Below, one piece after another: positions 2,843 to 48,825 of a stretch of 64,000 bases of DNA. The DNA is taken from positions 62,001 through 126,000 of the forward strand of contig LAPX01000002.1 in NCBI GenBank assembly GCA_001858525.1, given 5' to 3'. A program made the translations under genes and the position numbers. How positions within the stretch are numbered: the first letter of the stretch is position 1; each line of letters begins with the position of its first letter. This DNA comes from Vampirovibrio chlorellavorus. Lineage in GTDB: Bacteria > Cyanobacteriota > Vampirovibrionia > Vampirovibrionales > Vampirovibrionaceae. Under the pieces are notes generated by a model. It was not told the origin of the DNA. It searched no databases and worked only from the letters and a program-made list of their open reading frames with translations.

Positions 2843-2869
2843 TAAAGTTTTTCAAGCCGCCGCCGATAA
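2843..2869 (+). promoter_or_regulatory. Sigma-28 (FliA) promoter for pilin-like gene 1
   Basis: TAAAGTTT, 11 bases, then GCCGATAA: an exact match to the enterobacterial FliA consensus. It lies 40 bases before the start of the pilin-like gene at 2910. Confidence 0.85.
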
Positions 2870-2909
2870 GAAATCTACCTTCCAAAAGAAGCCTGTCTGG
2901 AGAATGTTC

Positions 2910-3509: not shown

Positions 3510-3546
3510 AGGCAAACGGTTTTTCAGAAATTTGCCGATTTTGCTC

Positions 3547-3573
3547 TAAAGTTTTTCAAGCCTTCGCCGATAC
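3547..3573 (+). promoter_or_regulatory. Sigma-28 (FliA) promoter for pilin-like gene 2
   Basis: TAAAGTTT, 11 bases, then GCCGATAC. It lies between the first and second pilin-like genes. The leader after it is nearly identical to those of the other two genes. Confidence 0.83.
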
Positions 3574-3613
3574 TTAATCTACCTTCCAAAAGAAGCCTGT
3601 CTGGAGAATGTTC

Positions 3614-4234: not shown

Positions 4235-4271
4235 GAGCAAACGGTTTTAAGAAAATTTGCCGATTCGGCTC

Positions 4272-4298
4272 TAAAGTTTTTCAAGCCTGCGCCGATAA
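4272..4298 (+). promoter_or_regulatory. Sigma-28 (FliA) promoter for pilin-like gene 3
   Basis: TAAAGTTT, 11 bases, then GCCGATAA: an exact consensus match, 40 bases before the gene start at 4339. Confidence 0.85.
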
Positions 4299-4338
4299 AT
4301 AATATACCTTCCCCAAAAAGCCTGCCTGGAGAATGTTC

Positions 4339-4962
4339 ATGCACCGCTTTCCCAAGCCCCATCCACGCCGAAAAATCTTCAGAGGCTTTACCCTGGCCGA
4401 ATTGCTCATCAGCTTAGCCATTCTGGGCGTCATTGCCACTTTTACCATCCCCAAAATCCTCAGCACCCAGCAGAATCAAAAATTTAACGCCGTTGCCAAA
4501 GAAACCGCTGCAATGATCTCCGGAGCTTATCAGGCCTATCAACTATCAGGCGCCAGTACCACCGTTATGAGAACCCAAGACTTAACCGCATATTTTAACT
4601 ATGCCAGCATCGATACCACATCCCAAGTGGATGATGTCCCGGGTGGTACCTCATTCAATTGCAATGGCGGTTTTCCTTGCTATCGCCTGCACAATGGGGG
4701 TGTCCTTTATTATTGGACAGATAATTTTTGTAATGGAACACCCACGGCCATTGCTTACGGATTTGATCCAGACGGTGTTTACAGCGGCACCACCAATGGT
4801 ACGGGAAAGGCAGTCCGATTTTTCCTATACAACAACGGCGGGCTCCGAACAGAAGGCACACTTTTAAGCAATACAGTCTGGAATAATACGGGGACAAGCA
4901 ACTGCAACTATAACCGAAGTGCCATTCCCGCCTCCGATCCCTCATGGTTTAGCTGGAATTAA
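4339..4962 (+). CDS. Type IV pilin/pseudopilin-like protein 3
   Basis: Third tandem prepilin-like protein (207 residues). It has the leader ending RGFTLAELLIS, then LHNGGVLYYW, GFDPDG, the Cys pair FNC..FPC and the same SWFSWN end as gene 1. It is closest to gene 2 in the middle (HNGGVL.YW, FC/LC, then DPDG and a TNG.GKA.. segment). It ends 8 bases before the end of ftsY, which runs in the opposite direction. No terminator is obvious between them. Confidence 0.9.
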   Translation: MHRFPKPHPRRKIFRGFTLAELLISLAILGVIATFTIPKILSTQQNQKFNAVAKETAAMISGAYQAYQLSGASTTVMRTQDLTAYFNYASIDTTSQVDDVPGGTSFNCNGGFPCYRLHNGGVLYYWTDNFCNGTPTAIAYGFDPDGVYSGTTNGTGKAVRFFLYNNGGLRTEGTLLSNTVWNNTGTSNCNYNRSAIPASDPSWFSWN

Positions 4963-13768: not shown

Positions 13769-14608
13769 CTAGCCTCGGAGTAACTGCAAGGCCAGCTGTG
13801 GCGCCTGGTTGGCCTGGGCCAACATAGCCTGAGAAGCCTGCTGGAGAATCTGGTTTCGGGCCAGGTTGGCACTCTCCATAGCCACGTCCACGTTGCGCAC
13901 CCTCGATTCGGAGGCCGAGGTATTTTCCACGTTGGTGGCCAGGTTCTGAGCCGTGTACTCCAGTCGATTGGTAAAGGCACCCAACTGCCCTCGGGCGGTG
14001 TTGATGGTATCGATGGCGGTATCTAGCAACGAAATGGCACTTTGAGCCGCACTGTGATTATCCAGAGAGGCCACAGTAATCCCCAAGGTACTGGCGGTCA
14101 CATCCGTCAAGGCACTGGTAATGTCCAAATCATCGGCATTGCCACCCTGGTTGGCTGTAATTTGTAATGTTAGGTTGGTCGGGCTGCTGGCATCCAGCAA
14201 GTGAATGCCGTTGAACTGAGCGGCCTGAGCCATCTGGGTGATACCGGAAGCAAGGGAATCATATTCAATCTGCATGGCCGAACGCTGAGCTGTACTATAG
14301 GTATCGTTGGCTGCCTGCACGGCCAGTTCCCGCATCCGCTGTACGGCATCGGTAATAGACTGGTAAGTACCATCGGCGATGTTCAGCATGTTGATACCAT
14401 CCTGAACGTTATCCAGTGCTTTTTGAGAACCCCGGATTTGCGCCCGCAATTTCTCGGAAACCTGCAAACCAGCAGCGTCATCCCCGGCCCGGTTAATGCG
14501 GTAACCGGAAGCCAGCTTTTCCATGGTTTTACCCAGGGCGCCGGTGTTGTTGCTTAAATAACGCTGAGCGTTCAGCGATGAAACGTTGGTGTTTACAACT
14601 AAAGGCAT
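13769..14608 (-). CDS. fliC: Flagellin 1
   Basis: Filament subunit of the flagellum (279 residues). It has the D0/D1 N-terminus (MPLVVNTNVSSLNAQRYL, SGYRINRAGDDAAGL, DGINMLNIADG, RMRELAVQAANDTYS) and the matching C-terminal helix ending QAPQLALQLLRG. Only a short central part lies between, so outer domains D2/D3 are lacking. I chose the ATG at 14608 (GGAG 8 bases upstream) over a longer frame. The central segment (TSALTDVTASTLGITVASLD) is almost the same as in flagellin 6, although the ends belong to a different group. It has its own sigma-28 promoter, a GGA-loop leader hairpin and a terminator. Confidence 0.96.
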   Translation of the reverse strand: MPLVVNTNVSSLNAQRYLSNNTGALGKTMEKLASGYRINRAGDDAAGLQVSEKLRAQIRGSQKALDNVQDGINMLNIADGTYQSITDAVQRMRELAVQAANDTYSTAQRSAMQIEYDSLASGITQMAQAAQFNGIHLLDASSPTNLTLQITANQGGNADDLDITSALTDVTASTLGITVASLDNHSAAQSAISLLDTAIDTINTARGQLGAFTNRLEYTAQNLATNVENTSASESRVRNVDVAMESANLARNQILQQASQAMLAQANQAPQLALQLLRG

Positions 14609-14668
14609 CGAAGTAACTCCTCTTTTTTTATACACTCACCAAAGCCAGCTCTGAAACAGCAGGCTTCG

Positions 14669-14703
14669 CTTTGCCTCCGGCCCGATCCTTGGCCAAGGCA
14701 AAG
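14669..14703 (-). promoter_or_regulatory. Leader hairpin with GGA loop (possible CsrA site), flagellin 1
   Basis: On the minus strand CTTTGCCT pairs with AGGCAAAG and an inner GGCC with GGCC, leaving the loop AAGGATCG. It lies 60 bases before the start codon. Confidence 0.6.
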
Positions 14704-14792
14704 TTAAATGAACAACCTTATTTCGTGTGACAGTAATCAACGGAATTCAAACCGTGCTCCATTGAATAGCCCAGCTTGAGTTCTGTTTCTCC

Positions 14793-14819
14793 TATCGGAA
14801 GCCTAGTCTGAAAACTTTA
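14793..14819 (-). promoter_or_regulatory. Sigma-28 promoter of flagellin 1
   Basis: The minus strand reads TAAAGTTT, 13 bases, CCGATA. The leader would be about 180 bases. Confidence 0.82.
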
Positions 14820-15023
14820 AAGAACCTGCCAAATCTCCATTGTACGGTGGAGACAAAAGTATCCATCTGACAACTGTTTTGAGCCGCTCCCCCTTGAAGG
14901 GAAAGCCTTTTGCCCCAAATACCGGTATTCCTGCAAAAACACTATCCAGAGGAGGCCCGATCCCATTCCGTCCTCCAGTGACTGTAGACCAAACCAATGA
15001 GCTCTTACTTTTATGCTCTCCCT

Positions 15024-15054
15024 TCAAAAGCGAAGACCCGGCCGAAGCCGGGTC
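15024..15054 (-). terminator. Terminator of flagellin gene 2
   Basis: GACCCGGC pairs with GCCGGGTC around a TTCG tetraloop on the minus strand, followed by TTCGCTTTT. Confidence 0.85.
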
Positions 15055-15093
15055 CTCTGAGCGTTATGAACAGACCTATCCCAGTCTGCCTGG

Positions 15094-15924
15094 CTATCCT
15101 CGCAGTAACTGCAAGGCCAGCTGTGGCGCCTGGTTGGCCTGAGCCAACATGGCCTGAGAGGCCTGCTGGAGGATCTGGTTTCGGGCCAGATTGGAACTCT
15201 CCATAGCCACGTCCACGTTTCGCACCCTCGATTCGGAAGCAGACGTGTTTTCCACGTTGGTGGCCAGGTTCTGAGCCGTGTACTCCAGTCGGTTGGTAAA
15301 GGCACCCAAGCGACCTCGGGCCGCGTTAATGGCATCCAGTGCGGAATCCAGCGTAGAAATGGCAGATTGCGCACTGGCGTGAGACAGCATTGAGCCAGTC
15401 AGCACCACACTGGTAATATCGATCAATGAACTGACGATATCCAGTTCATCAGCCGTGCCCCCTTGATTGGCTGTAATCTGCAATTCCAAAGTCGCAGGGG
15501 TGGAGGCATCCAGCAGGTGAATCCCGTTAAACTGAGCGGCCTGAGCCATCTGGCTAATACCAGATGACAAAGAATCATACTCAATTTGCATGGCGGATCG
15601 CTGGGCAGAACTGTAGGTATCGTTGGCTGCTTGCACGGCCAATTCCCGCATCCGCTGTACGGCATCGGTAATGGACTGGTAAGCACCATCGGCGATGTTC
15701 AGCATGTTGATACCATCCTGAACGTTATCCAGTGCTTTTTGAGAACCCCGGATTTGCGCCCGCAATTTCTCGGAGACCTGCAAACCAGCCGCGTCATCCC
15801 CGGCCCGGTTAATACGATACCCGGAAGCCAGCTTTTCCATGGTTTTACCAAGACCAGTGGTATTATTCGTTAAGTAACGCTGGGCATTCAGCGATGAAAC
15901 GTTGGTGTTTACAACTAAAGGCAT
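15094..15924 (-). CDS. fliC: Flagellin 2
   Basis: Flagellin of 276 residues with the same ends as flagellins 1, 3 and 4 (start MPLVVNTNVSS, end QAPQLALQLLRG). The central part differs: GGTADELDIVSSLIDITSVVLTGSM, then LSHASAQSAI and INAARGRLGAF. It shares the SMLSHASAQ.AI..LD.ALDAIN signature with flagellin 7, whose ends are of the other group. GGAG lies 8 bases before the ATG. It is a separate transcription unit with its own promoter, leader hairpin and terminator. Confidence 0.96.
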   Translation of the reverse strand: MPLVVNTNVSSLNAQRYLTNNTTGLGKTMEKLASGYRINRAGDDAAGLQVSEKLRAQIRGSQKALDNVQDGINMLNIADGAYQSITDAVQRMRELAVQAANDTYSSAQRSAMQIEYDSLSSGISQMAQAAQFNGIHLLDASTPATLELQITANQGGTADELDIVSSLIDITSVVLTGSMLSHASAQSAISTLDSALDAINAARGRLGAFTNRLEYTAQNLATNVENTSASESRVRNVDVAMESSNLARNQILQQASQAMLAQANQAPQLALQLLRG

Positions 15925-15985
15925 CGAAGTGACTCCTCTTCATTTTAATTGACGTCACATGCCGAATAGAAGCAAGCAACGCGCT

Positions 15986-16011
15986 CCCCCCAAATCATCC
16001 TGTTTGAGAGA
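15986..16011 (-). promoter_or_regulatory. Leader hairpin with GGA loop (possible CsrA site), flagellin 2
   Basis: CAAA pairs with TTTG, extended by several G-U and C-G pairs (CTCT with GGGG), with the loop CAGGATGA. It is weaker than the other leader hairpins. Confidence 0.45.
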
Positions 16012-16109
16012 GAAGCAACTGTGATTTGTCTCGTGTGACTTGGGAATGGTTAGTGACCCACGTCAATAGTCATCTCCTATTCAAGATGGATATTCACGCT
16101 TGTTTGTCC

Positions 16110-16136
16110 TATCGGCGAAGTACACCAAATACTTTA
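16110..16136 (-). promoter_or_regulatory. Sigma-28 promoter of flagellin 2
   Basis: The minus strand reads TAAAGTAT, 13 bases, CCGATA (preceded by G). Confidence 0.8.
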
Positions 16137-16321
16137 AACAAACCGGAAATTCTCCCACGTTTGGAGGAGAGAGGGGTGATTAATAATTGTGTTCATGAGC
16201 CAAAAACGCCTTTACCCAAAAGCTTTCCAGTCAATCAAACCATTAAAACACCCCACTCCTTTTACCAGAGGAGAGACGATTGATTTCTTCTGATAAAAAT
16301 TTCCCCTGCTGGTTCGCGCAT

Positions 16322-16350
16322 AAAAAAAGACCTGGCCGAAGCCAGGTCTT
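16322..16350 (-). terminator. Terminator of flagellin gene 3
   Basis: AGACCTGGC pairs with GCCAGGTCT around a TTCG loop on the minus strand, followed by TTTTTT. Confidence 0.93.
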
Positions 16351-16431
16351 CCAGTCGAGGAGTGAGTGTTCGCCAGAAGCCGTTCCAGCGGAATCCTCGG
16401 TCCTTTAGTGAATTGAATAAATGGTAACCAA

Positions 16432-17274
16432 TTATCCTCGCAGCAACTGCAAGGCCAGCTGTGGTGCCTGGTTGGCCTGGGCCAACATAGCCTGAGAAGC
16501 CTGCTGGAGTATCTGGTTTCGGGCCAGGTTGGAACTCTCCGCGGCCACGTCCACGTTTCGCACCCTCGATTCGGAAGCCGAGGTGTTTTCCACGTTGGTG
16601 GCCAGGTTTTGTGCAGTGTACTCTAACCGGTTGGTATAAGCGCCCAATTGGCCTCGCGCCGCGTTCAAGTCATCGATTGCTGTATCCAGGAGAGCAATGG
16701 CACTTTGAGCCGCACTATGACCACTCAGCAATCCAGCGCCAATGGTACTGGCAATACCAGTCACATCGATCAAGGCACTGGCCACATCCAGATCATCGGC
16801 GTTGCCACCCTGGTTGGCCGTAATTTGTAAATTGATACCGCTGGTGGCATCGGTACCGTTCAACAAATTGAGGCCGTTGAACTGAGTCGCCTCTGCCATC
16901 TGGGTGATACCAGAAGCCAGAGAGTTGTACTCAATTTGCATCGCGGATCGCTGAGCGCTGCTGTAAGTATCGTTGGCTGCCTGCACGGCCAGTTCCCGCA
17001 TCCGTTGCACGGCATCGGTAATGGACTGGTAAGCACCATCGGCAATGTTCAGCATGTTGATGCCATCCTGAACGTTATCCAGCGCTTTTTGAGAACCCCG
17101 GATTTGCGCCCGCAATTTCTCGGAGACCTGCAAACCGGCGGCGTCATCACCGGCCCGGTTAATACGGTAACCGGAAGCCAGCTTTTCCATGGTTTTACCC
17201 AGGGCACCGGTGTTATTGGTCAAATACCGCTGAGCATTAATGGATGAAACGTTGGTATTAACAACTAAAGGCAT
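16432..17274 (-). CDS. fliC: Flagellin 3
   Basis: Flagellin of 280 residues with the same type of ends as flagellins 1, 2 and 4. The central segment is of another type: LLNGTDATSGINLQITANQGG, then ASALIDVTGIASTIGAGLLSG. It closely matches flagellin 5, which belongs to the other end group. The ATG at 17274 is preceded by GGAG with 5 bases between; an upstream GTG at 17280 is less likely. Own promoter, leader hairpin and terminator. Confidence 0.96.
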   Translation of the reverse strand: MPLVVNTNVSSINAQRYLTNNTGALGKTMEKLASGYRINRAGDDAAGLQVSEKLRAQIRGSQKALDNVQDGINMLNIADGAYQSITDAVQRMRELAVQAANDTYSSAQRSAMQIEYNSLASGITQMAEATQFNGLNLLNGTDATSGINLQITANQGGNADDLDVASALIDVTGIASTIGAGLLSGHSAAQSAIALLDTAIDDLNAARGQLGAYTNRLEYTAQNLATNVENTSASESRVRNVDVAAESSNLARNQILQQASQAMLAQANQAPQLALQLLRG

Positions 17275-17350
17275 AAGCACTCCTTTGATTGGTCAAACAA
17301 GCAAAAACCACCGTGACACACCCCCATTTGGCTGCATAACACGTTGCGCC

Positions 17351-17373
17351 CCAGAATAAATCCATTATTCCGA
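17351..17373 (-). promoter_or_regulatory. Leader hairpin with GGA loop (possible CsrA site), flagellin 3
   Basis: GAATAA pairs with TTATTC around the 5-base loop TGGAT, with further wobble pairs outside. The sequence GGCGTTCG just 5' of the stem is shared with flagellin 4. Confidence 0.65.
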
Positions 17374-17478
17374 ACGCCGGGTTTTTGATAGTGTCATTCG
17401 TGTGATTCATACATTGAGCATTGCTAACCTTGATACCGAACAGGTGCTCATGGAACCTGAGACTGTATCTGTATCTCC

Positions 17479-17505
17479 TATCGGCAATCTACATTAAAAC
17501 CTTGA
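17479..17505 (-). promoter_or_regulatory. Sigma-28 promoter of flagellin 3 (weak -35)
   Basis: The minus strand reads TCAAGGTT, 12 bases, GCCGATAG. The -10 box is perfect and the -35 is degenerate. Confidence 0.65.
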
Positions 17506-17701
17506 ATCTTTTTTCAAAAACTCCTCTGAACGGTGGACCCCTAAAATTCACTATTCCACGCCAAAAAAGTTTAGAAGCCTGCAGCATCAGTATTTCCCAT
17601 TTTTTTCAATGTTAAACCGCCAATAAAATTTTCCAGCGAACAGGGGATGACTCACAGAGGCATCTCCGTCCCCTCACCTAGACTGACTAAAGGAGCTTAA
17701 A

Positions 17702-17736
17702 CGCCTCAAGACCCAGCATCTTGCTGGGCCTTGAGA
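17702..17736 (-). terminator. Terminator of flagellin gene 4
   Basis: CTCAAG-G-CCCAGCA pairs with TGCTGGG-T-CTTGAG on the minus strand. The following T tract is short (GGCGTTTAAG). Confidence 0.75.
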
Positions 17737-17803
17737 GGGAGTTAATCATCGTGGAATTGGGAAGCCGTTCCCGTTTCCACGACGGTTTCCTTGAGTGAGA
17801 GAC

Positions 17804-18640
17804 CTATCCGCGCAGCAGCTGAAGGGCCAACTGCGGGGCCTGATTGGCTTGAGCCAACATGGCCTGGGAAGCTTGCTGGAGAATCTGATTTCGGGCCAGG
17901 TTGGAACTCTCCATGGCCACATCCACGTTGCGCACCCTCGATTCGGAGGCCGAGGTGTTCTCGATATTGGTGGCCAAATTCTGAGCCGCGTATTCCAAGC
18001 GATTAACAAAGGCTCCCAATTTTCCACGGGCCTCATTGACCGTATCCAGAGCGGCATCCATCACGGCAATGGCACTTTGAGCCGTCAAGTGACTACTCAA
18101 GTCACCGGCTACGGTCAGGGTAGCAGAAGTCATGTCATTGAGGGCGCTGGTAATATCCAGTTGATCGGCATTGCTGCCCTGATTGGCTGTAATTTGCAAA
18201 TTCAAACTGGTGGGGCTGCTGGCATCCAGCAAATGAATACCGTTGAACTGGGCCGCCTGAGCCATCTGGCTAATCCCAGAAGCCAAGGAGTTGTACTCAA
18301 TCTGCAAAGCTGATCGCTGAGCCGTGCTGTAGGTATCGTTGGCCGCCTGCACGGCCAGTTCCCGCATGCGTTGCAGAGAGTCGGTGATGGCCTGATAGGT
18401 ACCGTCGGCAATGTTCAGCATGTTCAAGCCATCCTGAACGTTATCCAGCGCTTTTTGAGAACCCCGAATTTGCGCCCGTAATTTTTCGGACACCTGCAAC
18501 CCGGCGGCGTCATCTCCGGCCCGGTTAATGCGATAACCGGAGGCCAGTTTCTCCATGGTCTTGCCCAGGGAACCGGTGTTGTTACTTAAATACCGCTGAG
18601 CGTTCAGCGATGAGACGTTGGTATTAATCACTAAAGGCAT
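17804..18640 (-). CDS. fliC: Flagellin 4
   Basis: Flagellin of 278 residues (start MPLVINTNVSSLNAQRYLSNN, end QAPQLALQLLRG). The central segment is unlike the other three types: GSNADQLDITSALNDMTSATLTVAGDLSSHLTAQ. It also has VNEARGKLGAFVNRLEYAAQN where the others have TARGQLGAFTNRLEYTAQN. GGAG is 12 bases from the ATG, longer than in its neighbours, which may lower translation. It is the last gene of the first end group. Confidence 0.96.
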   Translation of the reverse strand: MPLVINTNVSSLNAQRYLSNNTGSLGKTMEKLASGYRINRAGDDAAGLQVSEKLRAQIRGSQKALDNVQDGLNMLNIADGTYQAITDSLQRMRELAVQAANDTYSTAQRSALQIEYNSLASGISQMAQAAQFNGIHLLDASSPTSLNLQITANQGSNADQLDITSALNDMTSATLTVAGDLSSHLTAQSAIAVMDAALDTVNEARGKLGAFVNRLEYAAQNLATNIENTSASESRVRNVDVAMESSNLARNQILQQASQAMLAQANQAPQLALQLLRG

Positions 18641-18715
18641 GGGTTCAATTAACTCCTCTTATATCATCAGAAATCGACGCAATGGAAGAGACCCTTCCAG
18701 ACTGCGCTGCGTCCT

Positions 18716-18732
18716 GAGCAAATCCGTTGCCC
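18716..18732 (-). promoter_or_regulatory. Leader hairpin with GGA loop (possible CsrA site), flagellin 4
   Basis: GGGCAA pairs with TTGCTC (one G-U) around the loop CGGAT. It is preceded by GGCGTTCG, as in flagellin 3. Confidence 0.6.
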
Positions 18733-18826
18733 GAACGCCAATTTCTCGGCTTGATGTTTTCCTATCAATAGCTAGATGATAGACCCAGTGTCTCACTCAA
18801 ACACTGTAGTATCGTCTACAAATCTG

Positions 18827-18854
18827 CTTTCGACAGACTAGACCAAAAACTTTA
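18827..18854 (-). promoter_or_regulatory. Sigma-28 promoter of flagellin 4 (weak -10)
   Basis: The minus strand reads TAAAGTTT, 12 bases, GTCGAAAG. The -35 is perfect and the -10 is degenerate. Confidence 0.55.
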
Positions 18855-19057
18855 AAACCCTCTCCAAAACTCCTCCACCCAGCGGAGTGAGCTACTCCTG
18901 CATTCGGAGGAACAAGCACCTAAAACCCTTTAGCCATCAGGGTTTCAAAAAACAGTGCAAACAACCCTACCGCAACACATGAAGGACCCGCATAACACGG
19001 GGAGTCCTACAAACGCTTTAGACCATGAAACGCACCCGAACATGCCAACCAATAAAG

Positions 19058-19131
19058 CCGATACACAAAGGCCCTTGGCAACGCCAGGTAATTAAGCTGA
19101 TACACAAAGGCCCCTGGCAATGCCAGGAGCC
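19058..19131 (-). terminator. Duplicated terminator after flagellin gene 5
   Basis: Two copies of a 31-base unit (19058-19088 and 19097-19127) differ at a few places. The copy nearer the gene forms GGCTCCTGG with CCAGGGGCC, then TTTGTGTA on the minus strand. The second copy is a decayed duplicate. Confidence 0.65.
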
Positions 19132-19172
19132 TCTGATCCCAGATGAAACGACCACGGTGTCCGCTTAAAGAC

Positions 19173-20012
19173 TTACCTTAACAAACTCAAGGCGATCTGC
19201 GGACTTTGATTGGCCTGGGCCAACATTGCTGAGGCCGCCTGCTGAAGTATTTGATTTCGGGCCAGGTTGGAACTCTCTGCAGCCACATCCACATTTCGTA
19301 CCCTCGATTCAGAGGCCGAGGTGTTCTCAATGTTGGTGGCCAGGTTTTGGGCTGTGTATTCCAATCGGTTGGTAAACGCCCCCAACTGACCTCGGGCTGC
19401 ATTAATGTCATCCAGTGCCGTATCCAGCAGGCCAATGGCACTTTGGGCCGCACTATGACCATTCAGCAAACCAGCGGAGATAGTACTGGCAATGCCAGTC
19501 ACATCAATCAAAGCGCTGGATACATCCAAATCATCGGCATTGCCCCCTTGATTGGCTGTAATTTGTAAATTGATACCACTGGCCGCATCGGTGCCATCCA
19601 GCAAATTAATGCCGTTAAACTGGGCAGCCTCTGCCATCTGGGTAATACCCGACACCAGTGAGTCATATTCTGTTTGCATGGCCGATCGCTGAGCACTGCT
19701 GTAGGTATCGTTGGATGCCTGCACGGCCAGTTCCCGCATCCGCTGCACGGCATCGGTAATGCTCTGCAAAGCCCCATCGGCGATGTTCAGCATGTTCACA
19801 CCATCCTGAACGTTATCCAGTGCTTTTTGAGAACCCCGAATTTGCGCACGCAATTTCTCGGAGACCTGCAAACCAGCCGCGTCATCCCCGGCCCGGTTAA
19901 TGCGATACCCGGAAGCCAGCTTTTCCATGGTTTTGCTAAGCCCGTTGGTATTATTCGTCAAGTAACGCTGGGCATTCATTGCCGCCACGTTCGTGTTCAC
20001 AATTAATGGCAT
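19173..20012 (-). CDS. fliC: Flagellin 5
   Basis: Flagellin of 279 residues from the second end group (start MPLIVNTNVAAMNAQRYL, end NQSPQIALSLLR without the last Gly). Its central segment (GTDAASGINLQITANQGG, ALIDVTGIASTISAGLLNG) nearly repeats that of flagellin 3. GGAG lies 9 bases before the ATG. I find no sigma-28 promoter in the 186 bases upstream, so it may be read from the promoter of flagellin 7. It does have a GGA-loop hairpin before it and a terminator after it. Confidence 0.96.
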   Translation of the reverse strand: MPLIVNTNVAAMNAQRYLTNNTNGLSKTMEKLASGYRINRAGDDAAGLQVSEKLRAQIRGSQKALDNVQDGVNMLNIADGALQSITDAVQRMRELAVQASNDTYSSAQRSAMQTEYDSLVSGITQMAEAAQFNGINLLDGTDAASGINLQITANQGGNADDLDVSSALIDVTGIASTISAGLLNGHSAAQSAIGLLDTALDDINAARGQLGAFTNRLEYTAQNLATNIENTSASESRVRNVDVAAESSNLARNQILQQAASAMLAQANQSPQIALSLLR

Positions 20013-20061
20013 ATAGTGATTCTCCTATTCCGTTTGATTGAATAAAGCTCGGTTCCGGTGA

Positions 20062-20084
20062 GGCAAGGCATCCATTGCCTTGCC
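20062..20084 (-). promoter_or_regulatory. Leader hairpin with GGA loop (possible CsrA site), flagellin 5
   Basis: GGCAAGGC pairs perfectly with GCCTTGCC around the 7-base loop AATGGAT. It is the strongest of the set and lacks a T tract, so it is not a simple terminator. Confidence 0.65.
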
Positions 20085-20198
20085 CTGACCACCAGGTCAC
20101 TGACCTTGAGCGTACCCACCTATCAGGCACACCCAAGACCAGATGCTTTTACTCAAAACTACCTACTTATCGACTTACTGTTTAACTGACTTCTCGCG

Positions 20199-21035
20199 CT
20201 ACCTTAACAGGCTAAGGGCAATCTGTGGGCTTTGATTGGCCTGGGCTAACATTGCTGAGGCCGCCTGCTGAAGGATTTGGTTTCGGGCCAGATTGGAACT
20301 CTCTGCAGCCACATCCACATTTCGTACCCTCGATTCAGAGGCCGAGGTGTTCTCAATGTTGGTGGCCAGGTTTTGGGCCGTGTATTCCAGTCGGTTGGTA
20401 AACGCCCCCAACTGACCTCGAGCCGTGTTGATGGTATCAATGGCGGTATCCAGCAAGGAAATGGCACTTTGCGCCGCACTATGTGAATCCAGTGAGGCCA
20501 CTGTGATTCCCAAAGTACTGGCCGTCACATCTGTCAAGGCACTGGTCAAATCCAAATCATCAGCATTACCACCTTGATTGGCCGTAATCTGGATATTGAT
20601 ATTGGCAGGACTACTGGCATCCAATAGGTGAATGCCGTTAAACTGAGCAGCCTGAGCAATCTGGGTGATGCCAGAAGCCAGTGAATCAAATTCCGTCTGC
20701 ATGGCCGATCGCTGAGCGGTACTATAAGTATCGTTGGCTGCTTGCACGGCCAATTCCCGCATCCGCTGCACGGCATCGGTGATGGATTGCATGGCCCCAT
20801 CAGCAATGTTCAGCATGTTCACGCCATCCTGAACGTTATCTAATGCCTTTTGAGAACCTTTGATCTGCGCTCGCAATTTTTCGGAGACCTGCAAACCCGC
20901 GGCGTCATCTCCGGCCCGGTTAATACGATACCCCGAAGCCAGTTTTTCCATGGTCCGGCCAAGACCATTGGTGTTATTGGTTAAGTAACGCTGGGCATTC
21001 ATTGCCGCCACGTTCGTGTTCACAATTAATGGCAT
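20199..21035 (-). CDS. fliC: Flagellin 6
   Basis: Flagellin of 278 residues from the second end group (MPLIVNTNVAAMNAQRYL, NQSPQIALSLLR). The central segment, LTSALTDVTASTLGITVASLD with ISLLDTAIDTINTARGQ, is almost identical to flagellin 1 of the first group. The gene starts 53 bases after flagellin 7 with no promoter or terminator between, so the two form one transcript. Its start region has two GGA motifs close together (AAGGATAGGAG), one of them the ribosome binding site. Confidence 0.96.
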   Translation of the reverse strand: MPLIVNTNVAAMNAQRYLTNNTNGLGRTMEKLASGYRINRAGDDAAGLQVSEKLRAQIKGSQKALDNVQDGVNMLNIADGAMQSITDAVQRMRELAVQAANDTYSTAQRSAMQTEFDSLASGITQIAQAAQFNGIHLLDASSPANINIQITANQGGNADDLDLTSALTDVTASTLGITVASLDSHSAAQSAISLLDTAIDTINTARGQLGAFTNRLEYTAQNLATNIENTSASESRVRNVDVAAESSNLARNQILQQAASAMLAQANQSPQIALSLLR

Positions 21036-21088
21036 ATAGTGATTCTCCTATCCTTGGGTTGTGTGAGGTTGATGGGTAAAACTATTGG

Positions 21089-21916
21089 TTAACGCAGTAA
21101 ACTGAGGGCAATTTGAGGACTCTGATTGGCTTGGGCCAACATGGCCGAAGCCGCCTGCTGCAGGATCTGGTTTCGGGCCAGGTTGGAACTTTCTCGGGCC
21201 ACATCCACGTTTCGCAACCTGGATTCCGAAGCAGAGGTGTTCTCAAAGTTGGTGGCCAGATTTTGGCCAATGTAGTCCAGCCGGTTGGTGAATGCCCCCA
21301 ATCGACTTCGGGTTGAGTTAATGGCGTCTAGTGCCGTATCCAGCGTCTGGATGGCTGTTTGGGCACTGGCATGAGACAACATGGAGGCCGTAAAGGTAAT
21401 GCTGGTAATATCCATCAGACCGCTGATCACATCAAAATCGTCTGACGTTCCGCCTTGGTTGGCCGTAATCTGCAAATTCAAATTGGCGGGCGCCGAGGCA
21501 TCGAGTAAATGAATGCCGTTAAACTGGGCAGCCTGAGCCATTTGTGTAATGCCGGAAGACAAGGAATCATATTCGGTTTGCATGGCCGAGCGTTGCGCAC
21601 TACTGTAGGTGTCGTTGGAGGCCTGCACGGCCAATTCCCGCATCCGCTGTACGGCATCGGTGATGGATTGCATAGCCCCATCTGCGATGTTCAGCATGTT
21701 GATGCCATCCTGAACGTTATCCAGCGCCTTTTGAGAACCTCGAATCTGAGCCCGCATTTTTTCAGACATTTGCAAACCAGCGGCATCATCTCCGGATCGG
21801 TTGATGCGATACCCGGAAGACAATTTTTCCATGGTTTTACTGAGGTTATTGGTATTGCTGGTTAAATAACGCTGGGCATTCATGGCCCCCACGTTCGTAT
21901 TCACAATCAAAGGCAT
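21089..21916 (-). CDS. fliC: Flagellin 7
   Basis: Flagellin of 275 residues, second end group (MPLIVNTNVGAMNAQRYLTSN, NQSPQIALSLLR). It is the most divergent of that group in D1: RINRSGDDAAGLQMSEKMRAQ and RLDYIGQNLATNFENTSASESRLRNVDVARES. The central segment (GGTSDDFDVISGLMDITSITFTASM, LSHASAQTAI) is related to flagellin 2. I chose the ATG at 21916 (GGAG 7 bases upstream); the frame is open to 22003. It is first gene of the 7-6-(5) transcript, with a sigma-28 promoter upstream. Confidence 0.96.
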   Translation of the reverse strand: MPLIVNTNVGAMNAQRYLTSNTNNLSKTMEKLSSGYRINRSGDDAAGLQMSEKMRAQIRGSQKALDNVQDGINMLNIADGAMQSITDAVQRMRELAVQASNDTYSSAQRSAMQTEYDSLSSGITQMAQAAQFNGIHLLDASAPANLNLQITANQGGTSDDFDVISGLMDITSITFTASMLSHASAQTAIQTLDTALDAINSTRSRLGAFTNRLDYIGQNLATNFENTSASESRLRNVDVARESSNLARNQILQQAASAMLAQANQSPQIALSLLR

Positions 21917-21971
21917 TAATTTTCTCCTGTCCGTGCGCGATTGCAGCCCATTCCAATCCCCGTACAGCAAA

Positions 21972-21986
21972 AGCAAATCCATTGCC
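21972..21986 (-). promoter_or_regulatory. Leader hairpin with GGA loop (possible CsrA site), flagellin 7
   Basis: GGCAA pairs with TTGCT (one G-U) around the loop TGGAT, 56 bases before the ATG. The stem is short. Confidence 0.5.
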
Positions 21987-22127
21987 GTTGCCTGCCCAAG
22001 CATCCGGGCGACCGAGGCGGAAAGTTATCCTCATTTCGTGTGTGGTGAATAAATTACTACGTGCTTGAAGTGTGATCCGACAGACATAAATCTCCATCCA
22101 ATGGTGGAAATATATGCTTGTGCCTCC

Positions 22128-22154
22128 TATCGGTAGAGGAGATCTAAAACTTTA
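22128..22154 (-). promoter_or_regulatory. Sigma-28 promoter of the flagellin 7-6-(5) unit
   Basis: The minus strand reads TAAAGTTT, 13 bases, CCGATA. Confidence 0.83.
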
Positions 22155-22467
22155 GGGTTTAAAAAAATCCATCGGCATCCAATCCCCTGAAACCCTGTCC
22201 CTGCCTGATAAAAAAGACATTAATATATATTAACAAAATAAAAAGAAGATACCCAGCACCCCTCAATAATGATCGGGGAAGCACTCTTCAACCCAAACCG
22301 CAGTAACGCTCCAAACGGGTTCCGGCGCAACTTAAAGTCACTATCCCGCCATGGCCAATAGTGGCAAAAGACTGGCTGGGTGGCCGGATCGATCACGGTT
22401 CCCTAAAAACACTCAAAACTCAAAAACACTCGGTGATGAAAGCGGTGATGTCTCAGGCTCATTCTCG
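22155..22467. other. Intergenic region, nothing recognised
   Basis: AT-rich at 22200-22250. There is no convincing ORF, promoter or terminator. The 3' end of the 22468 gene has no clear terminator here. Confidence 0.5.
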
Positions 22468-23961
22468 TTAAATTCTCCATTGTCCATACCCATACGGATT
22501 GGTGGACAGCCGCGCACCTTGAAAGGGAGCCTGCACCTTGGGCGCGGCAATGGCAGCAGCTGAGGCTGGATCTTCCAGCGGTTTCCCCTGAGCGGCAAAT
22601 CCGCCATAAGACTGAAACACGGTTCGCCCCTGCGCTGGTTGGACCGGTTGCAAGGCCACCATTTTTTTCTGTTTTTCCACTTCTTGCTTTTGATGCCGCT
22701 TGTTGGTCTGGCGATAGGCAACCAAATTGATACCCACCCCGCAAACCGCAGCCCCTAAAGCCAAAGAACTCCAATAAAGCCCTTTACTTTGTGCCATCTT
22801 GATTTTGTCTGCAACCTTTTGAGTAATGGCACCAGAAGTGACGAGCTTTTCAACCTCGCTTTTAAACTGACTGGCCTCCTTTCCCAAATCAAGCTTCAAA
22901 ATGGTTTCAGGCGTAGTGCCTTTATTCCACATGGCGCCCCATAATGATTGTCCTTTGGGGACATCCAGCAGCGTTAAATTCAAGTCCTTAAGGCTTTGAA
23001 ACTTGCCCTGGGCGTCTTTAAAAAATGCCAGTTTTTCCAACCCTTTGGCCAAAAAGTTTCCGGCCAAAGCTTGCCCAAAAAGCAAATAAGGAATAACAAC
23101 CGATAAACGAGTGGCCTGCTCTTTAAATTCTAGTTTGTCGCGGGAGGCATCGAGATAACTGGCCAGACCCACGAGTGTTAGCAAGCCCTGAAACCCTTTG
23201 TGAGTATCGAATTGAGATTTACCGGAACTACCAAAATTCAGGTATCTCAGCAGCTTGGGAATACGCTGGGATTCCTCTTTTACAAAACGCTTGAAAACCC
23301 ATGGCATAGCCAAAGCAGTACCCATAGTCCCCAACCATAAGGCGCCCACTTGCTTTTGGCGCTTAGTGGCCTTGGCCACCGGGTCCGATTCCCCTTGGGC
23401 AATATGAACTCTGGAATGCTCTAAACCCGCCACACCGGTAAAATTAGTGGTATGAAATTTTTTAGCCGTAATGACATTTTTCCAGTGCTGGATCATATAC
23501 TCAAAGGCAAAGGCACTGCCCAAGGCACCTAAAATGGCCCCGGATTTTGCAGCAAGCAGCTTGGTAGGCACTGTTTTAGAGAAATCCTTAACGCCATATT
23601 GCGCCCAGCTTTGACCAATTTGCTTATAATCCAGACCACCTTGCATCTTGGCGATTAAAGCACCAACCGCAGTACCCACGACTGGCACCGTGAAATAAAA
23701 AGCCCCATCTTCCACAAATTCAAGAAATGTATCTTCAAAAAATTGAATTTTGTTCACACGCTGGGCAGTCGGATCGTCTTTACCCAACTGTGCATTACGC
23801 AACAAGCTAACCGGTGCCTTTGGCAACCAGACACCTGCCGTATCTTGAGCAAACTGCTTCACAGCTTCGGGAGTAATCACGCTGGAAACCACGTTAACCA
23901 CACCACCAAATTTTGGCTCCTGACTACTTTGAATGAATTTTTGCGGTGTTGGTTGGGACAT
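22468..23961 (-). CDS. Membrane protein of unknown function within the flagellin locus
   Basis: Not recognised (497 residues). The N-terminal 90 residues are polar. Several hydrophobic or Gly/Ala-rich helices follow: FYFTVPVVGTAVGALIAKM, SGAILGALGSAFAFEYMI, LWLGTMGTALAMPWVF, LSVVIPYLLFGQALAGNFLA, LYWSSLALGAAVCGVGINLVA. The end is a polar tail rich in Gln, Pro and Ala finishing NPYGYGQWRI. It has no signal peptide. It has neither a sigma-28 promoter nor homology to flagellins that I can see, yet sits between flagellins 7 and 8 on the same strand. The style (polar Pro/Ser start, weak transmembrane helices) resembles the proteins at 60013 and 63051. Confidence 0.75.
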   Translation of the reverse strand: MSQPTPQKFIQSSQEPKFGGVVNVVSSVITPEAVKQFAQDTAGVWLPKAPVSLLRNAQLGKDDPTAQRVNKIQFFEDTFLEFVEDGAFYFTVPVVGTAVGALIAKMQGGLDYKQIGQSWAQYGVKDFSKTVPTKLLAAKSGAILGALGSAFAFEYMIQHWKNVITAKKFHTTNFTGVAGLEHSRVHIAQGESDPVAKATKRQKQVGALWLGTMGTALAMPWVFKRFVKEESQRIPKLLRYLNFGSSGKSQFDTHKGFQGLLTLVGLASYLDASRDKLEFKEQATRLSVVIPYLLFGQALAGNFLAKGLEKLAFFKDAQGKFQSLKDLNLTLLDVPKGQSLWGAMWNKGTTPETILKLDLGKEASQFKSEVEKLVTSGAITQKVADKIKMAQSKGLYWSSLALGAAVCGVGINLVAYRQTNKRHQKQEVEKQKKMVALQPVQPAQGRTVFQSYGGFAAQGKPLEDPASAAAIAAPKVQAPFQGARLSTNPYGYGQWRI

Positions 23962-24007
23962 TTTAAACCCTCTGGGTCAATGGATGCTTTTATAAAACCG
24001 GTGAAAG

Positions 24008-24048
24008 TAAAAAACCGCCGACCTGTTTAGGAGGGAGGTCGGCGGTTT
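24008..24048 (-). terminator. Strong terminator after the 29-codon ORF
   Basis: AAACCGCCGACCT pairs perfectly with AGGTCGGCGGTTT (13 bp), then TTTTTAC on the minus strand. It lies between the small ORF at 24074 and the gene starting at 23961. Confidence 0.92.
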
Positions 24049-24073
24049 GGCTGTATCTGGTTAAAACTGGGGT

Positions 24074-24163
24074 TTAGATTTCTTCACAGCGCATTGGCCC
24101 ACACTCCCGAAGGATAATGGGACACATAATCATCACAATGGCAAAAATAGTGAAGAATTCCAT
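24074..24163 (-). CDS. Possible 29-residue membrane peptide
   Basis: An ATG-started frame of 29 codons that begins with a hydrophobic helix (MEFFTIFAIVMIMCPIIL) and ends with a charged, Cys-containing tail (RECGPMRCEEI). A GGA lies 7 bases before the ATG. A TTGACA box is present upstream near 24250 (on the minus strand), with a less convincing TACTCT 16 bases later. A very strong terminator follows the stop by 26 bases. The arrangement of promoter, small ORF and terminator is what a small membrane protein gene would show; the coding call itself is inference. Confidence 0.45.
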   Translation of the reverse strand: MEFFTIFAIVMIMCPIILRECGPMRCEEI

Positions 24164-24299
24164 GATGCTTTCCAAAAGAGACTTTCCTAAAGATATACTC
24201 AGAATGAGTAAACTTTTTAACTTCCCAATAGAGTACTGTTTCAAGAAAATCTGTCAATCCCAAAAGTTGCACGCATACAGCCATAAAGTTACAACCATG

Positions 24300-24329
24300 A
24301 AAAAAAGGGGCCCGGATGAACCGAGCCCC
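24300..24329 (-). terminator. Terminator of flagellin gene 8
   Basis: GGGGCTCGG pairs with CCGGGCCCC (one G-U) around TTCAT, followed by TTTTTT on the minus strand. Confidence 0.92.
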
Positions 24330-24385
24330 ATATCGTTTGTTGGAAAAACGAAACCGGTGTGAATCGTTTCGCCAACCACCCGGGC

Positions 24386-25243
24386 TTACTGTTGCAACAA
24401 TCGCAACGCCAGCTGGGGTGTTTGGTTAGCCTGTGACAACATCGCCTGCGAGGCCTGCTGAAGTATCTGGTTTCGAGAAAGGTTAGAGCTTTCCATCGCC
24501 ACATCCACGTTTCGAATCCGTGACTCTGAGGCACTCAAGTTCTCAATCCCTATGGAGAGGTTATTGGCGGCTCCTTCCAGACGGTTGACCACCGCACCCA
24601 GCACACCGCGCTTGGTATTCACCGAATCAATGGCGGCATCCACCTGAGTCAGCAGGTTACGGGCTGCTAAACCGTTGACCAGACTTGAGGTCAACGCTAG
24701 CCCATCCCAGCCAGTGATCCCCAGCGTGGAGGCCTTGGAGTCGCCCAAGGCACTGGCGATATCGATCTGATCGGTGGTGGCGTTATTGGGGCCTACTTGC
24801 AGCGTAAACTGGGTAGGGCTGGCACTGGACAACAGATAAACCCCGTTGAACTGGCTGGCAAACGAGATACGGTCAATGTCGGTCAGCAATTGAACAATCT
24901 CTACCTGCATGGCCGAACGCTGAGCGGTGTTGTAGGTATCGTTGGACCCCTGTACTGCCAGCTCGCGAATCCGCTGTAAGCTGTCGGTAATGGTTTGCAG
25001 AGAGCCATCCGCGATGTTTAATACGTTGATCCCATCCTGGGTGTTATCGAAGGCTTTTTGAGAACCCCGGATTTGGGCCCGCAACTTCTCGGATAACTGC
25101 AAACCGGCCGCATCGTCCCCGGCCCGGTTAATGCGGTACCCGGAGGACAGCTTTTCCATCGTTTTACCCAGCATGCTGGTGTTCATACCCAAACTGCGCT
25201 GAGCGTTTAATGAGGAAACGTTGGTGTTAATGACTAGAGGCAT
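24386..25243 (-). CDS. fliC: Flagellin 8 (divergent)
   Basis: Flagellin of 285 residues, clearly set apart from the other seven. It keeps MPLVINTNVSSLNAQRSL, SSGYRINRAGDDAAGLQLSEK, RELAVQGSNDTYN and ends NQTPQLALRLLQQ. The centre is its own: ASPTQFTLQVGPNNATTDQID and GITGWDGLALTSSLVNGLAARN, and it lacks the ITANQGG motif of the others. GGAG lies 7 bases before the ATG at 25243. It has a sigma-28-like promoter, a leader hairpin and a terminator. It could be a minor or cell-proximal filament subunit (inference). Confidence 0.96.
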   Translation of the reverse strand: MPLVINTNVSSLNAQRSLGMNTSMLGKTMEKLSSGYRINRAGDDAAGLQLSEKLRAQIRGSQKAFDNTQDGINVLNIADGSLQTITDSLQRIRELAVQGSNDTYNTAQRSAMQVEIVQLLTDIDRISFASQFNGVYLLSSASPTQFTLQVGPNNATTDQIDIASALGDSKASTLGITGWDGLALTSSLVNGLAARNLLTQVDAAIDSVNTKRGVLGAVVNRLEGAANNLSIGIENLSASESRIRNVDVAMESSNLSRNQILQQASQAMLSQANQTPQLALRLLQQ

Positions 25244-45699: not shown

Positions 45700-45763
45700 A
45701 TCCTCCAAAAACACTCAGAAGTGTTCCTCAGATCAGAGATTGCAGCGCCAAAAGTGCTAAAAA

Positions 45764-45812
45764 TGCACCGACACCCACGACAATGATTGATCATCGTGGG
45801 TGCTACGGTGCA
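45764..45812 (-). terminator. Two-stem terminator of the csbD-like gene
   Basis: TGCACCG pairs with CGGTGCA and, inside, ACCCACGA with TCGTGGGT. On the minus strand it is followed by TTTTTAG. It may also slow plus-strand reading from the CDF gene. Confidence 0.85.
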
Positions 45813-45832: not shown

Positions 45833-46039
45833 TTAGCGGGATTTAAGAGGCAACAGGGTTTCAATTTCCCGCTCAATTTCACGACGAGTTCGACCCGTGC
45901 GTTGCTGAATACGGCCCAACAACTCTTCTTCCTTGCCTTCGACGTACAGCAAATCGTTATCGGTCAACTGGGCATACTTTTCCTTGAGTTTGCCCTTCAA
46001 AACGTTCCAGTTTCCTTTGATTTCAGTTTTATTCAACAT
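45833..46039 (-). CDS. CsbD-like stress-response protein
   Basis: A small, charged protein of 68 residues (MLNKTEIKGNWNVLKGKLKEKYAQLTDNDLLYVEGKEEELLGRIQQRTG). It matches the CsbD-like family, whose members are induced by general stress in many bacteria; the biochemical role is unknown. I used the ATG at 46039 with GGAG 11 bases upstream; a GTG three codons earlier has closer spacing and is an alternative. Confidence 0.9.
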   Translation of the reverse strand: MLNKTEIKGNWNVLKGKLKEKYAQLTDNDLLYVEGKEEELLGRIQQRTGRTRREIEREIETLLPLKSR

Positions 46040-46323
46040 AGCAATCACATCTCCTATCCTGTAATACGGGGCGATTGTCTAACCAGAATCCTCTCCCTCG
46101 GTAAAAAGTCACCGCCCAATCCAACCAAACCCATTTGTGACTGTGATGTTCACAAGCTGGGTTACCGGAGAAAGTCTGGTTATTATAGCGCCCGGCATTT
46201 TTGGTTAAATTACCTGTTCGTCTAGTGAGATGTTCGCTAATGGTTTCAGGCGGATTAGCAAGGCGGCTATTTCGGATTTTGCGAAAAAACCTCAGAAATG
46301 CTTCCCAAATTACAAAGCCAGCC

Positions 46324-46350
46324 TAAAGTTCTTAAAAATGCGGCCGATAA
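46324..46350 (+). promoter_or_regulatory. Sigma-28 (FliA) promoter of a predicted small RNA
   Basis: TAAAGTTC, 11 bases, GCCGATAA: one mismatch from the consensus in a region without a downstream plus-strand gene. Confidence 0.8.
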
Positions 46351-46356
46351 TTATCT

Positions 46357-46540
46357 TGTCAGTCAAATAACCGGTGCCAATGTAATATTGTCGTCGTTGG
46401 TACCACTCACAACAGTGTAGATAGGTAGGTAATCACAAACTTCCTCGGAGCGAGAAACGGCCACCAAACTGCTGTTACACGCTCCGGGAAACGAAACCGA
46501 CCCGGTCAGAAGTCTGTCTCTGGCCGGGTCACTACTTTTT
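46357..46540 (+). ncRNA. Predicted sigma-28-dependent small RNA
   Basis: From the expected start after the sigma-28 promoter to the terminator is about 180 bases. Hairpin 1 is GGTGCCAA with TTGGTACC (46373-46404). A middle part follows. Hairpin 2 is GGAGCG with CGCTCC (46447-46485). Then comes a 12-bp terminator. No plus-strand ORF with a start and ribosome binding site is seen: the first ATG (46380) is followed directly by TAA. The RNA stays clear of the convergent debranching-enzyme gene. Confidence 0.55.
46499..46540 (+). terminator. Terminator of the predicted small RNA
   Basis: GACCCGGTCAGA pairs with TCTGGCCGGGTC (one G-U), followed by ACTACTTTTTG. It could also serve the minus-strand gene that ends at 46551. 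Confidence 0.85.
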
Positions 46541-46550
46541 GCCCACCCCC

Positions 46551-48743
46551 CTAAACCTGCACAATAATATCCAATTCGCCCTTACGATTTCGCACATCCA
46601 CCGTCACGCTCTGGTGGTTGCGCCGAAATTCCAGATCCACCATAGCATTGCCCACACGCATATTATTAATTTGCAGGTATGACATGTAATGGGGCAAGCT
46701 GGGCGAATGGATAGACAGCGTCTTGCGAGGCGCATCGGCCCGCATATTGAGCATGGACTGAATGATGGAATACATGGCCGCTGCCGCCCAGGCTTGGGGA
46801 ATACAGGAAACCGCATAACGCACCGGCGGATCACCCTCTTTGCCGTCCTCCTTGCGGAATCCGCAAAACAGTTCCGGCAAACGCCGATAATGCATGTGCC
46901 GGGCCGCCTCAAATAACCCGGTAAAAAGGCGCTCTACCAAGTCTGGCCGGTTCAGCCGGGCAAACCCCCGGGCGATTAAAGCATTGTCATGCGGCCAAAT
47001 AGAGCCGTTGTGATAGCTCATGGGGTTATACGCCACCGTGTTGGAACTGAGCGTGCGGATGCCCCAGCCATTGAACAAATCCGCGGACATAAGCCGGTTG
47101 ATGGCCTGATCGGCGTGATTCTCATAAAACAGTCCGGTTTCCAGACAATGACCCGGATTGGAAGCGATGACCCGAAAGGGCTTGCCCGCCTCATCCAGGG
47201 CCAGCGCGCAGTACTCTAAATCATCCATCCAGAAATGGATGTTAAAACGCTTGCGAAAGTCAACGCACTCCTGCCTCAATCGCTGCCGCAACTCTTTATC
47301 ATCCATATAATCGGCCAAACGGGCCATATGCGTTTTGGCCATGTACACATACCCCTGCACTTCAGACAGGGCAATGGGGGGCTGACCGATCACCCCAAAC
47401 TCATCCATCACACTGTCGTGAGAATCCTTCCAGCCCTGCTGCAAAATACCCCGAGCGCACATGGTGCGGTAGGTGCTAAACCCCAGCGAGTGCTTGCGCA
47501 GGTTCTCATCAATCCAATTCAGGGCAGCCAGTGCGTTGGGCCATAAGGCGCACAGCAACTCCCGGTCGTTGGTCCAGCGAAAGTACTCGTACAAGGTAAT
47601 GATAAACAAGGGGGTAGAATCCACGCTGCCGTAATAGGGCGTATGCGGAATTTCGCCCAGACGGGCCAGCTCCCCCACCCGCAATTCGTGCAAAATCTTG
47701 CCGGGCTCCTCATCCCGATGGGCGTTGTTTTCCTGCCCCTGGTACTTGGCCAGAATTTTCAGGGATTCCCGAGCCACTGTGGGATTGTACAACAAGGCAA
47801 ACCGGGACGTAATCAGGGAGTCTCGTCCAAATAAAGCCACATACCAGGGAATCCCAGCGGCCACGTAACTGCCCTCATCGGTATGGGTCATCAACATCTG
47901 CATGTCTTTCTGATTCCGGGACATCATTTCGTTAAAATCCTCGTTGTCAGAAACAAAGACCGCGGTATCCTGAATGTTTTTACGCGCCCTGAAATTCAGG
48001 TGAACCAGGGCTTCATCCATGGTTTGCACGCTGGCCTCAATGGTCCCGGCATTCATCATGCGATCGTTAATAATGGTTCGAATTTCGTAGTTAAAGTTCA
48101 AGGGATGTCGGGGCTTCAGCAAGGTACGATAAATGACGGTGGGCAAGTCCTGGGCAGGCATTTCCTCCGGCGCCAGATCCACAAAACGAATCCCCGTTTG
48201 CAAATTACGCCCGCTACGATCCTTGCAGCCAAAAATCAGTACCGGATTTTGCCCGCTGGTATCCATAATGGGCGGCCGCTTTTGCAATGGGGGCATCTCC
48301 ACAATGCCACGAATGTCAAACATATCCCGAAAATCCGCGTCAAACGTCAGGCTCAGCTCGATGTAAACGGGCTTGCAATAGTAGCTGACCAACCAAAAGC
48401 GTTCAAACTGGTGCCCATATAACACCGTTTCCCGCTTCAGCTGAATACTCTCCGGGGGAAGCGTCACCGGGGTGCCGTCCTCCGTGGCCGTCTCAATCGG
48501 CCCGTTGGTAAACACAATGGTGGACATATACCCCATTTCCGTGGAAGAGAGCAACGGAATGGGATCGGTGCCATGCAGCTTGATTTCAAAACAGCTTAAA
48601 AAACGGGTATCCAAATGGTACATGCCCAGCCCGGACATATCCCCGCGCGGGATATTTCCCTGCAAATCATCCACCAGGTACAAGTGGTTGTGCTTGATGG
48701 TGCGATTTCTGGATAAAAAATCCTCGGGCTGTTTAATCTGCAT
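46551..48743 (-). CDS. Glycogen debranching enzyme-like protein (amylo-alpha-1,6-glucosidase family)
   Basis: A large enzyme of 730 residues. The N-terminal domain (about 1-230) begins KHNHLYLVDDLQGNIPRGDMSGLGMYHLDTRFLS, the start of the N-terminal glycogen-debranching domain. The C-terminal (alpha/alpha)6 barrel contains AGIPWYVALFGRDSLITSR, YYGSVDSTPLFI, GWKDSHDSVMDEFG, SNPGHCLETGLF and YHNGSIWPHDNALIARGF, as in the bacterial amylo-alpha-1,6-glucosidase group. It likely trims branched glucans or related sugars. I chose the ATG at 48743 with GAGAG upstream. A glycosyltransferase lies just upstream, so they may form an operon. Confidence 0.85.
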   Translation of the reverse strand: MQIKQPEDFLSRNRTIKHNHLYLVDDLQGNIPRGDMSGLGMYHLDTRFLSCFEIKLHGTDPIPLLSSTEMGYMSTIVFTNGPIETATEDGTPVTLPPESIQLKRETVLYGHQFERFWLVSYYCKPVYIELSLTFDADFRDMFDIRGIVEMPPLQKRPPIMDTSGQNPVLIFGCKDRSGRNLQTGIRFVDLAPEEMPAQDLPTVIYRTLLKPRHPLNFNYEIRTIINDRMMNAGTIEASVQTMDEALVHLNFRARKNIQDTAVFVSDNEDFNEMMSRNQKDMQMLMTHTDEGSYVAAGIPWYVALFGRDSLITSRFALLYNPTVARESLKILAKYQGQENNAHRDEEPGKILHELRVGELARLGEIPHTPYYGSVDSTPLFIITLYEYFRWTNDRELLCALWPNALAALNWIDENLRKHSLGFSTYRTMCARGILQQGWKDSHDSVMDEFGVIGQPPIALSEVQGYVYMAKTHMARLADYMDDKELRQRLRQECVDFRKRFNIHFWMDDLEYCALALDEAGKPFRVIASNPGHCLETGLFYENHADQAINRLMSADLFNGWGIRTLSSNTVAYNPMSYHNGSIWPHDNALIARGFARLNRPDLVERLFTGLFEAARHMHYRRLPELFCGFRKEDGKEGDPPVRYAVSCIPQAWAAAAMYSIIQSMLNMRADAPRKTLSIHSPSLPHYMSYLQINNMRVGNAMVDLEFRRNHQSVTVDVRNRKGELDIIVQV

Positions 48744-48825
48744 GGCGCTCTCTTTCGGGAACAAGTTGGGCACAAGGCGGTATGGACCATACTGGATTCA
48801 CCGCCAACGGGTCAAAAGCCCCCAA

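Follow-up and report, generated by a model that had tools for sequence, protein, structure and literature searches.

Does the gap between the genes for a CsbD-like protein and a glycogen debranching enzyme in Vampirovibrio chlorellavorus specify a small RNA of its own and, if so, with which genes would that RNA be made and how would it act? The gap lies in a stretch of 64,000 nucleotides, here called the window, of a genome of 3.03 Mb that is 99.6% complete. On its left is the divergent gene for the CsbD-like protein (45833-46048, minus strand; Pfam CsbD), and on its right the convergent gene for a glycogen debranching enzyme family protein (46551-48773, minus strand; Pfam GDE_N_bis and GDE_C), which has relatives in Vampirovibrio genomes, the nearest at 96% protein identity. 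At the far left of the window, an ORF at 337-756 consists largely of a (GV)n repeat and is probably a simple-sequence array, not a gene.

Promoter, terminator and predicted fold

A FliA (sigma-28) type promoter, TAAAGTTCTTAAAAATGCGGCCGATAA, occupies positions 46324-46350 of the forward strand. The preliminary description had called it near-perfect; in fact it matches the pattern TAAAG-N14-GCCGATAA without a single mismatch, its spacing is 15 bases, and both boxes and spacing are kept in two sister species, G002 and G004. The sequence GCCGATAA is the classical -10 of FliA promoters. Five perfect matches to the pattern are present genome-wide, against about 0.1 sites expected by chance in a simple estimate (13 fixed bases, both strands, 3.03 Mb); of the other four, two are in the window (2843 and 4272), one precedes an epimerase-like gene and one is inside an ORF of the opposite strand. 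A FliA-type promoter directly upstream is one of the features expected of a sigma-28-dependent sRNA, and such a promoter is found here. The region 45740-45790 also resembles the promoter region weakly, a likeness that we ascribed to chance because it is not kept in G002.

Behind the promoter, some 180 bases free of genes, with two hairpins and a 12-bp terminator, had been proposed. We find about 183 non-coding bases (46358-46540, forward strand), the 5' end of this predicted small RNA being placed from the promoter and its 3' end from the terminator. The whole has a folding energy of -68.7 kcal/mol (z = -5.8 relative to dinucleotide shuffles), and the linker-to-terminator part reaches z = -6.0. 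It begins with a 5' tail, GTCAGTCAAA (46358-46372), which is unpaired in the fold and invariant in three species, followed by stem-loop 1 (SL1) of 10 bp, which coincides exactly with the first hairpin proposed (46373-46404). A linker, ATCACAAAC (46432-46440), likewise unpaired and invariant, precedes stem-loop 2 (SL2), which spans 46441-46490 and is therefore larger than the 46447-46485 first given to it. The intrinsic terminator (46499-46540), kept in G002 and G004, was recovered as described by a separate terminator scan, with its 12-bp stem at 46499-46530 followed by the T tract ACTACTTTTT; a non-coding RNA with a defined 3' end of this kind is again what is expected of a sigma-28-dependent sRNA.

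Conservation, covariation and distribution

Of four other species of the genus that were compared by Blast, two have the interval, at 77-78% identity and flanked by the same pair of genes, for the CsbD-like protein and the debranching enzyme. These sister species retain the promoter spacing, the terminator and both hairpins. The SL2, linker and terminator segments are 83-90% identical across species, against 66-72% for third codon positions in the adjacent gene, and the identity of SL1 to the copy in the studied genome (G000) is only 56%. Half of the SL1 bases differ in G002 and G004, yet 10 of the 10 pairs are kept, and a 10-bp hairpin appears at the same place in all three species when each sequence is folded separately. 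Changes on both sides with pairing retained affect four pairs of SL1 and one of SL2 in an alignment with one loop gap placed by hand; the covariation in SL1 depends on moving that gap, of which the separate folds are independent, and a plain MAFFT alignment shows the compensatory change in SL2 (C-G to U-A) only. As G002 and G004 are identical in SL1, they count there as one observation, not two. A weak stem that follows SL1 has two further pairs with changes on both sides, which we regard as doubtful, since the pairs next to them in that stem are disrupted in G000. SL2, which carries the conserved loop CRCCAAACT, folded with z of about -5 whichever of the three species was taken. The consensus fold (SCI 0.92) beat 300 of 300 column shuffles (z = -9.7) and, without the terminator, 500 of 500 (z = -7.1), so that the comparison with related genomes that had been suggested as a check turned out in favour of a structure both conserved and covarying in the two sister species.

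The divergence is not evenly spread along the RNA. When 46358-46430 was compared with L009 and L010, SL1 and the linker that follows it were identical in G002 and G004 and very different in G000; SL2, unlike this 5' part, is about equally diverged in all three species pairs. Local recombination or replacement of the 5' part of the RNA is a possible source of this pattern.

It could be argued that there is no independent sRNA here, and that a bidirectional terminator and a conserved 3'-UTR of the debranching gene imitate one, the promoter match being incidental. The convergent gene does have its stop codon just short of the terminator stem, so that its mRNA may end there, and the flanking intergenic sequence is conserved too among these close species. 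However, the promoter boxes and their spacing, a rare combination in this genome, recur in three species, the T tract belongs to the forward strand, and SL1 and SL2, which on the minus strand would come after the terminator, are nevertheless structurally constrained; we consider this explanation very unlikely.

Beyond the genus, a covariance model of SL2 and the terminator was run on 382 genomes of the class and recovered the three copies at E of about 1e-36, while the remaining 379 gave no convincing hit, under strict filters that weak relatives could escape. Its remaining hits (best E 0.0008) were dismissed, being about as weak as wrong-strand hits to the terminator in G002 and G004 (E 0.002-0.004). 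Rfam 15, with 6S and other families, gave no match in the window at the gathering score and, when the threshold was relaxed, nothing but an irrelevant hit to a microRNA on the opposite strand. No paralogues of the RNA were found within its own genome and no match to it in phage records; 12 hits of a 16-base pattern in viral contigs were ascribed to chance. In G001, a FliA-type site, TAAAGGTTTTGAAAAACCTGCCGATAA (L011:1490-1540, minus strand), faces away from purC and towards a gap in which neither a gene nor a terminator is evident; we considered this site upstream of purC as a moved copy and rejected it, as neither a terminator-like site nor a homologous RNA comes after it. The element in V. 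chlorellavorus is very probably a real, genus-restricted structured RNA, which would be new as a sequence family and known in kind, namely as a sigma-28-dependent sRNA.

Coding potential

We then asked whether the transcript could be translated. The first ATG after the promoter, at 46380, stands directly before TAA, as had been noted, and a search of the three species for a conserved open frame found none that keeps a start codon. In the 3' half, the three species do share one similar frame, as a short protein-coding gene would require; however, this frame lacks an ATG, GTG or TTG start there and comes after a stop in G000, the reading frame is displaced by indels from one species to another, and the base changes follow the pairing. 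A coding function is, in our opinion, extremely improbable.

The regulon of the promoter

Three promoters of the same class were found by pattern match at 2843-4298 (sites 2843, 3547 and 4272, forward strand), each 35 bases before a prepilin gene; the sites at 2843 and 4272 are perfect and the one at 3547 has one mismatch. One prepilin-like protein with the signature GFTLAELLISLAILGVIATFTIPKIL has 42 matches genome-wide, which in the window fall at 2904-4962. At the loci of the best 30 of these 42 matches, a FliA-type site scoring at least 11 of 15 lies upstream of 28 of the 31 prepilin ORFs, 27 times with a 15-base spacing, and a score of 12 is reached by 26 of the 31, against 4 of 620 shuffled upstream regions. 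Most of the ORFs examined share the form TMAAGTTTTT-N9-GYCGATAH. The same score was attained by four of six prepilins examined in G001 and by none in three relatives of the f6 family. As for the flagellins, eight genes form a cluster at 14186-25231 (minus strand) and three more are elsewhere in the genome. A FliA-type site is recognisable for four of the eight in the window, in each case with a 16-base spacing and CCGATAG at its end. These promoters are located far upstream of the start, and their spacing is one base longer than that of the prepilin promoters. Because of its 15-base spacing, against the 16 of the flagellins, the promoter of the small RNA belongs to the prepilin class. The RNA had been described as co-expressed with flagellins; the prepilins should be named first. 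Dozens of prepilin genes, together with several flagellins, seem to belong to the regulon, and it is unusual for prepilins to dominate one of the FliA type.

A FliA/WhiG-family sigma factor, above the curated cut-off, is encoded in the genome. Among 58 genomes of the class, such factors were found above the cut-off in 48, and they were absent from the sampled genomes of f4 and f9. The small RNA might be real and nonetheless depend not on FliA but on a SigF-like sigma factor, in the way that photosynthetic cyanobacteria read their pilin genes. A SigF-like gene sits directly before a prepilin peptidase gene (L125:1811-3898, G000:C26), and the promoter of the RNA has the spacing of the prepilins, not that of the flagellins; on the other hand, its -10 sequence is the classical one of FliA. 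Since the SigF promoter of Synechocystis is reportedly unlike those of the FliA/SigD type (PMC2758279), we prefer FliA as the reader of the 15-base class and regard reading by the SigF-like factor as rather unlikely.

Possible mode of action

RNA polymerase with a FliA-family sigma factor would start near 46358 and stop at the terminator ending near 46540, and the RNA, starting from a FliA-family promoter, would for that reason be made with the FliA-type regulon. It would most likely act in trans and without Hfq, through short and imperfect duplexes between mRNAs and its unpaired, conserved stretches, the candidates being the 5' tail GUCAGUCAAA, the linker AUCACAAAC or the loop CRCCAAACU, and so adjust appendage or attachment genes. 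Hfq-dependent sRNAs presuppose Hfq in the organism, and a search with PF17209, which in a control found the Hfq of E. coli and B. subtilis, gave no match in this 99.6% complete genome.

An action on the translation of motility genes had been suggested, along with target prediction against flagellin, pilin and regulator leaders. A duplex scan of 76 leaders (27 prepilin, 8 flagellin, 41 other), of low power, revealed no convincing enrichment of prepilins or flagellins and no convincing partner, the predicted pairing with the leaders of these two groups being not convincingly better than with those of other genes. The prepilins gave p = 0.007, uncorrected, against the loop of SL1, a loop that is not conserved. 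As the scan gave no convincing preference, we infer pairing in trans because sRNAs of such a kind usually work in this way.

A structured RNA of the same regulon could also act by binding a protein instead of by base pairing. The structure is kept better than the sequence of SL1, no Hfq gene was detected and the target enrichment was not convincing, all of which would suit protein binding. However, several unpaired stretches are conserved, as pairing needs, neither 6S nor another protein-binding family was matched in Rfam, and the RNA does not resemble a CsrA sponge. For the latter, a single GGA motif had been counted; there are two, one within CGGAGCG and the other within CGGGAAA, which both belong to the SL2 stem and to no loop, whereas sponges like CsrB and RsmY have many in loops, so that the earlier exclusion of a CsrB-type sponge stands on a corrected count. 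We hold protein binding to be unlikely, albeit with an appreciable probability.

Weighing these explanations, we lean towards a free-standing, non-coding sRNA of about 183 nt that would be made with the FliA-type regulon and act in trans without Hfq; an Hfq-independent sRNA of the FliA regulon is the most likely identity of this RNA, and it is probably a regulatory one, made when the cell builds its surface appendages. A bolder version seems to us quite improbable: that the RNA founds a new, Hfq-independent family which ties the 42 prepilin paralogues to the flagella in a relative of a predatory cyanobacterium that does not photosynthesise, with SL1 as an exchangeable targeting module, its sequence being swapped from species to species and the rest of the RNA preserved.

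Comparison with known systems

V. chlorellavorus is described as having the genes for a flagellum and for type IV pili, with which it finds Chlorella and attaches to it (PMC4451040), and since it has genes for both, a shared regulator of flagella and pili is plausible. Our literature search found no small RNA described in Vampirovibrio or Melainabacteria. If the RNA is controlled by FliA, it would be a case of RNA regulation added, without Hfq, to an appendage programme in bacteria distant from Escherichia and Campylobacter, and it would offer a handle on how this alga-hunting lineage moves between swimming and attachment.

In photosynthetic cyanobacteria, the alternative sigma factor SigF drives pilA (PMC2758279, PMC6495340). 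The SigF-like gene beside the prepilin peptidase gene of Vampirovibrio recalls this control; unlike the SigF promoter of Synechocystis, which reportedly does not resemble promoters of the FliA/SigD type (PMC2758279), those of the small RNA and the prepilins do.

Among sRNAs, CJnc170 (FlmR) of Campylobacter jejuni, of 47 nt, has its own FliA-dependent promoter, and its overexpression leads to shorter flagella and less motility (PMC11187230). The Vampirovibrio RNA is also a non-coding small RNA behind a FliA-type promoter of its own, recognised here from sequence alone; unlike CJnc170, it would measure about 183 nt, with two hairpins and a terminator, and its best-matched co-regulated genes are prepilins. 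In E. coli, UhpU, MotR, FliX and FlgO are four UTR-derived sRNAs under sigma-28 control, in a study whose keywords include Hfq (PMC10578931). They share with the Vampirovibrio RNA a control of the sigma-28 type, which here is read from the promoter sequence, whereas the latter would be an intergenic unit provided with a promoter and a terminator of its own, in a genome without detected Hfq. The likeness to CJnc170 and to the E. coli sRNAs would be one of promoter control, and the RNA matches no Rfam family.
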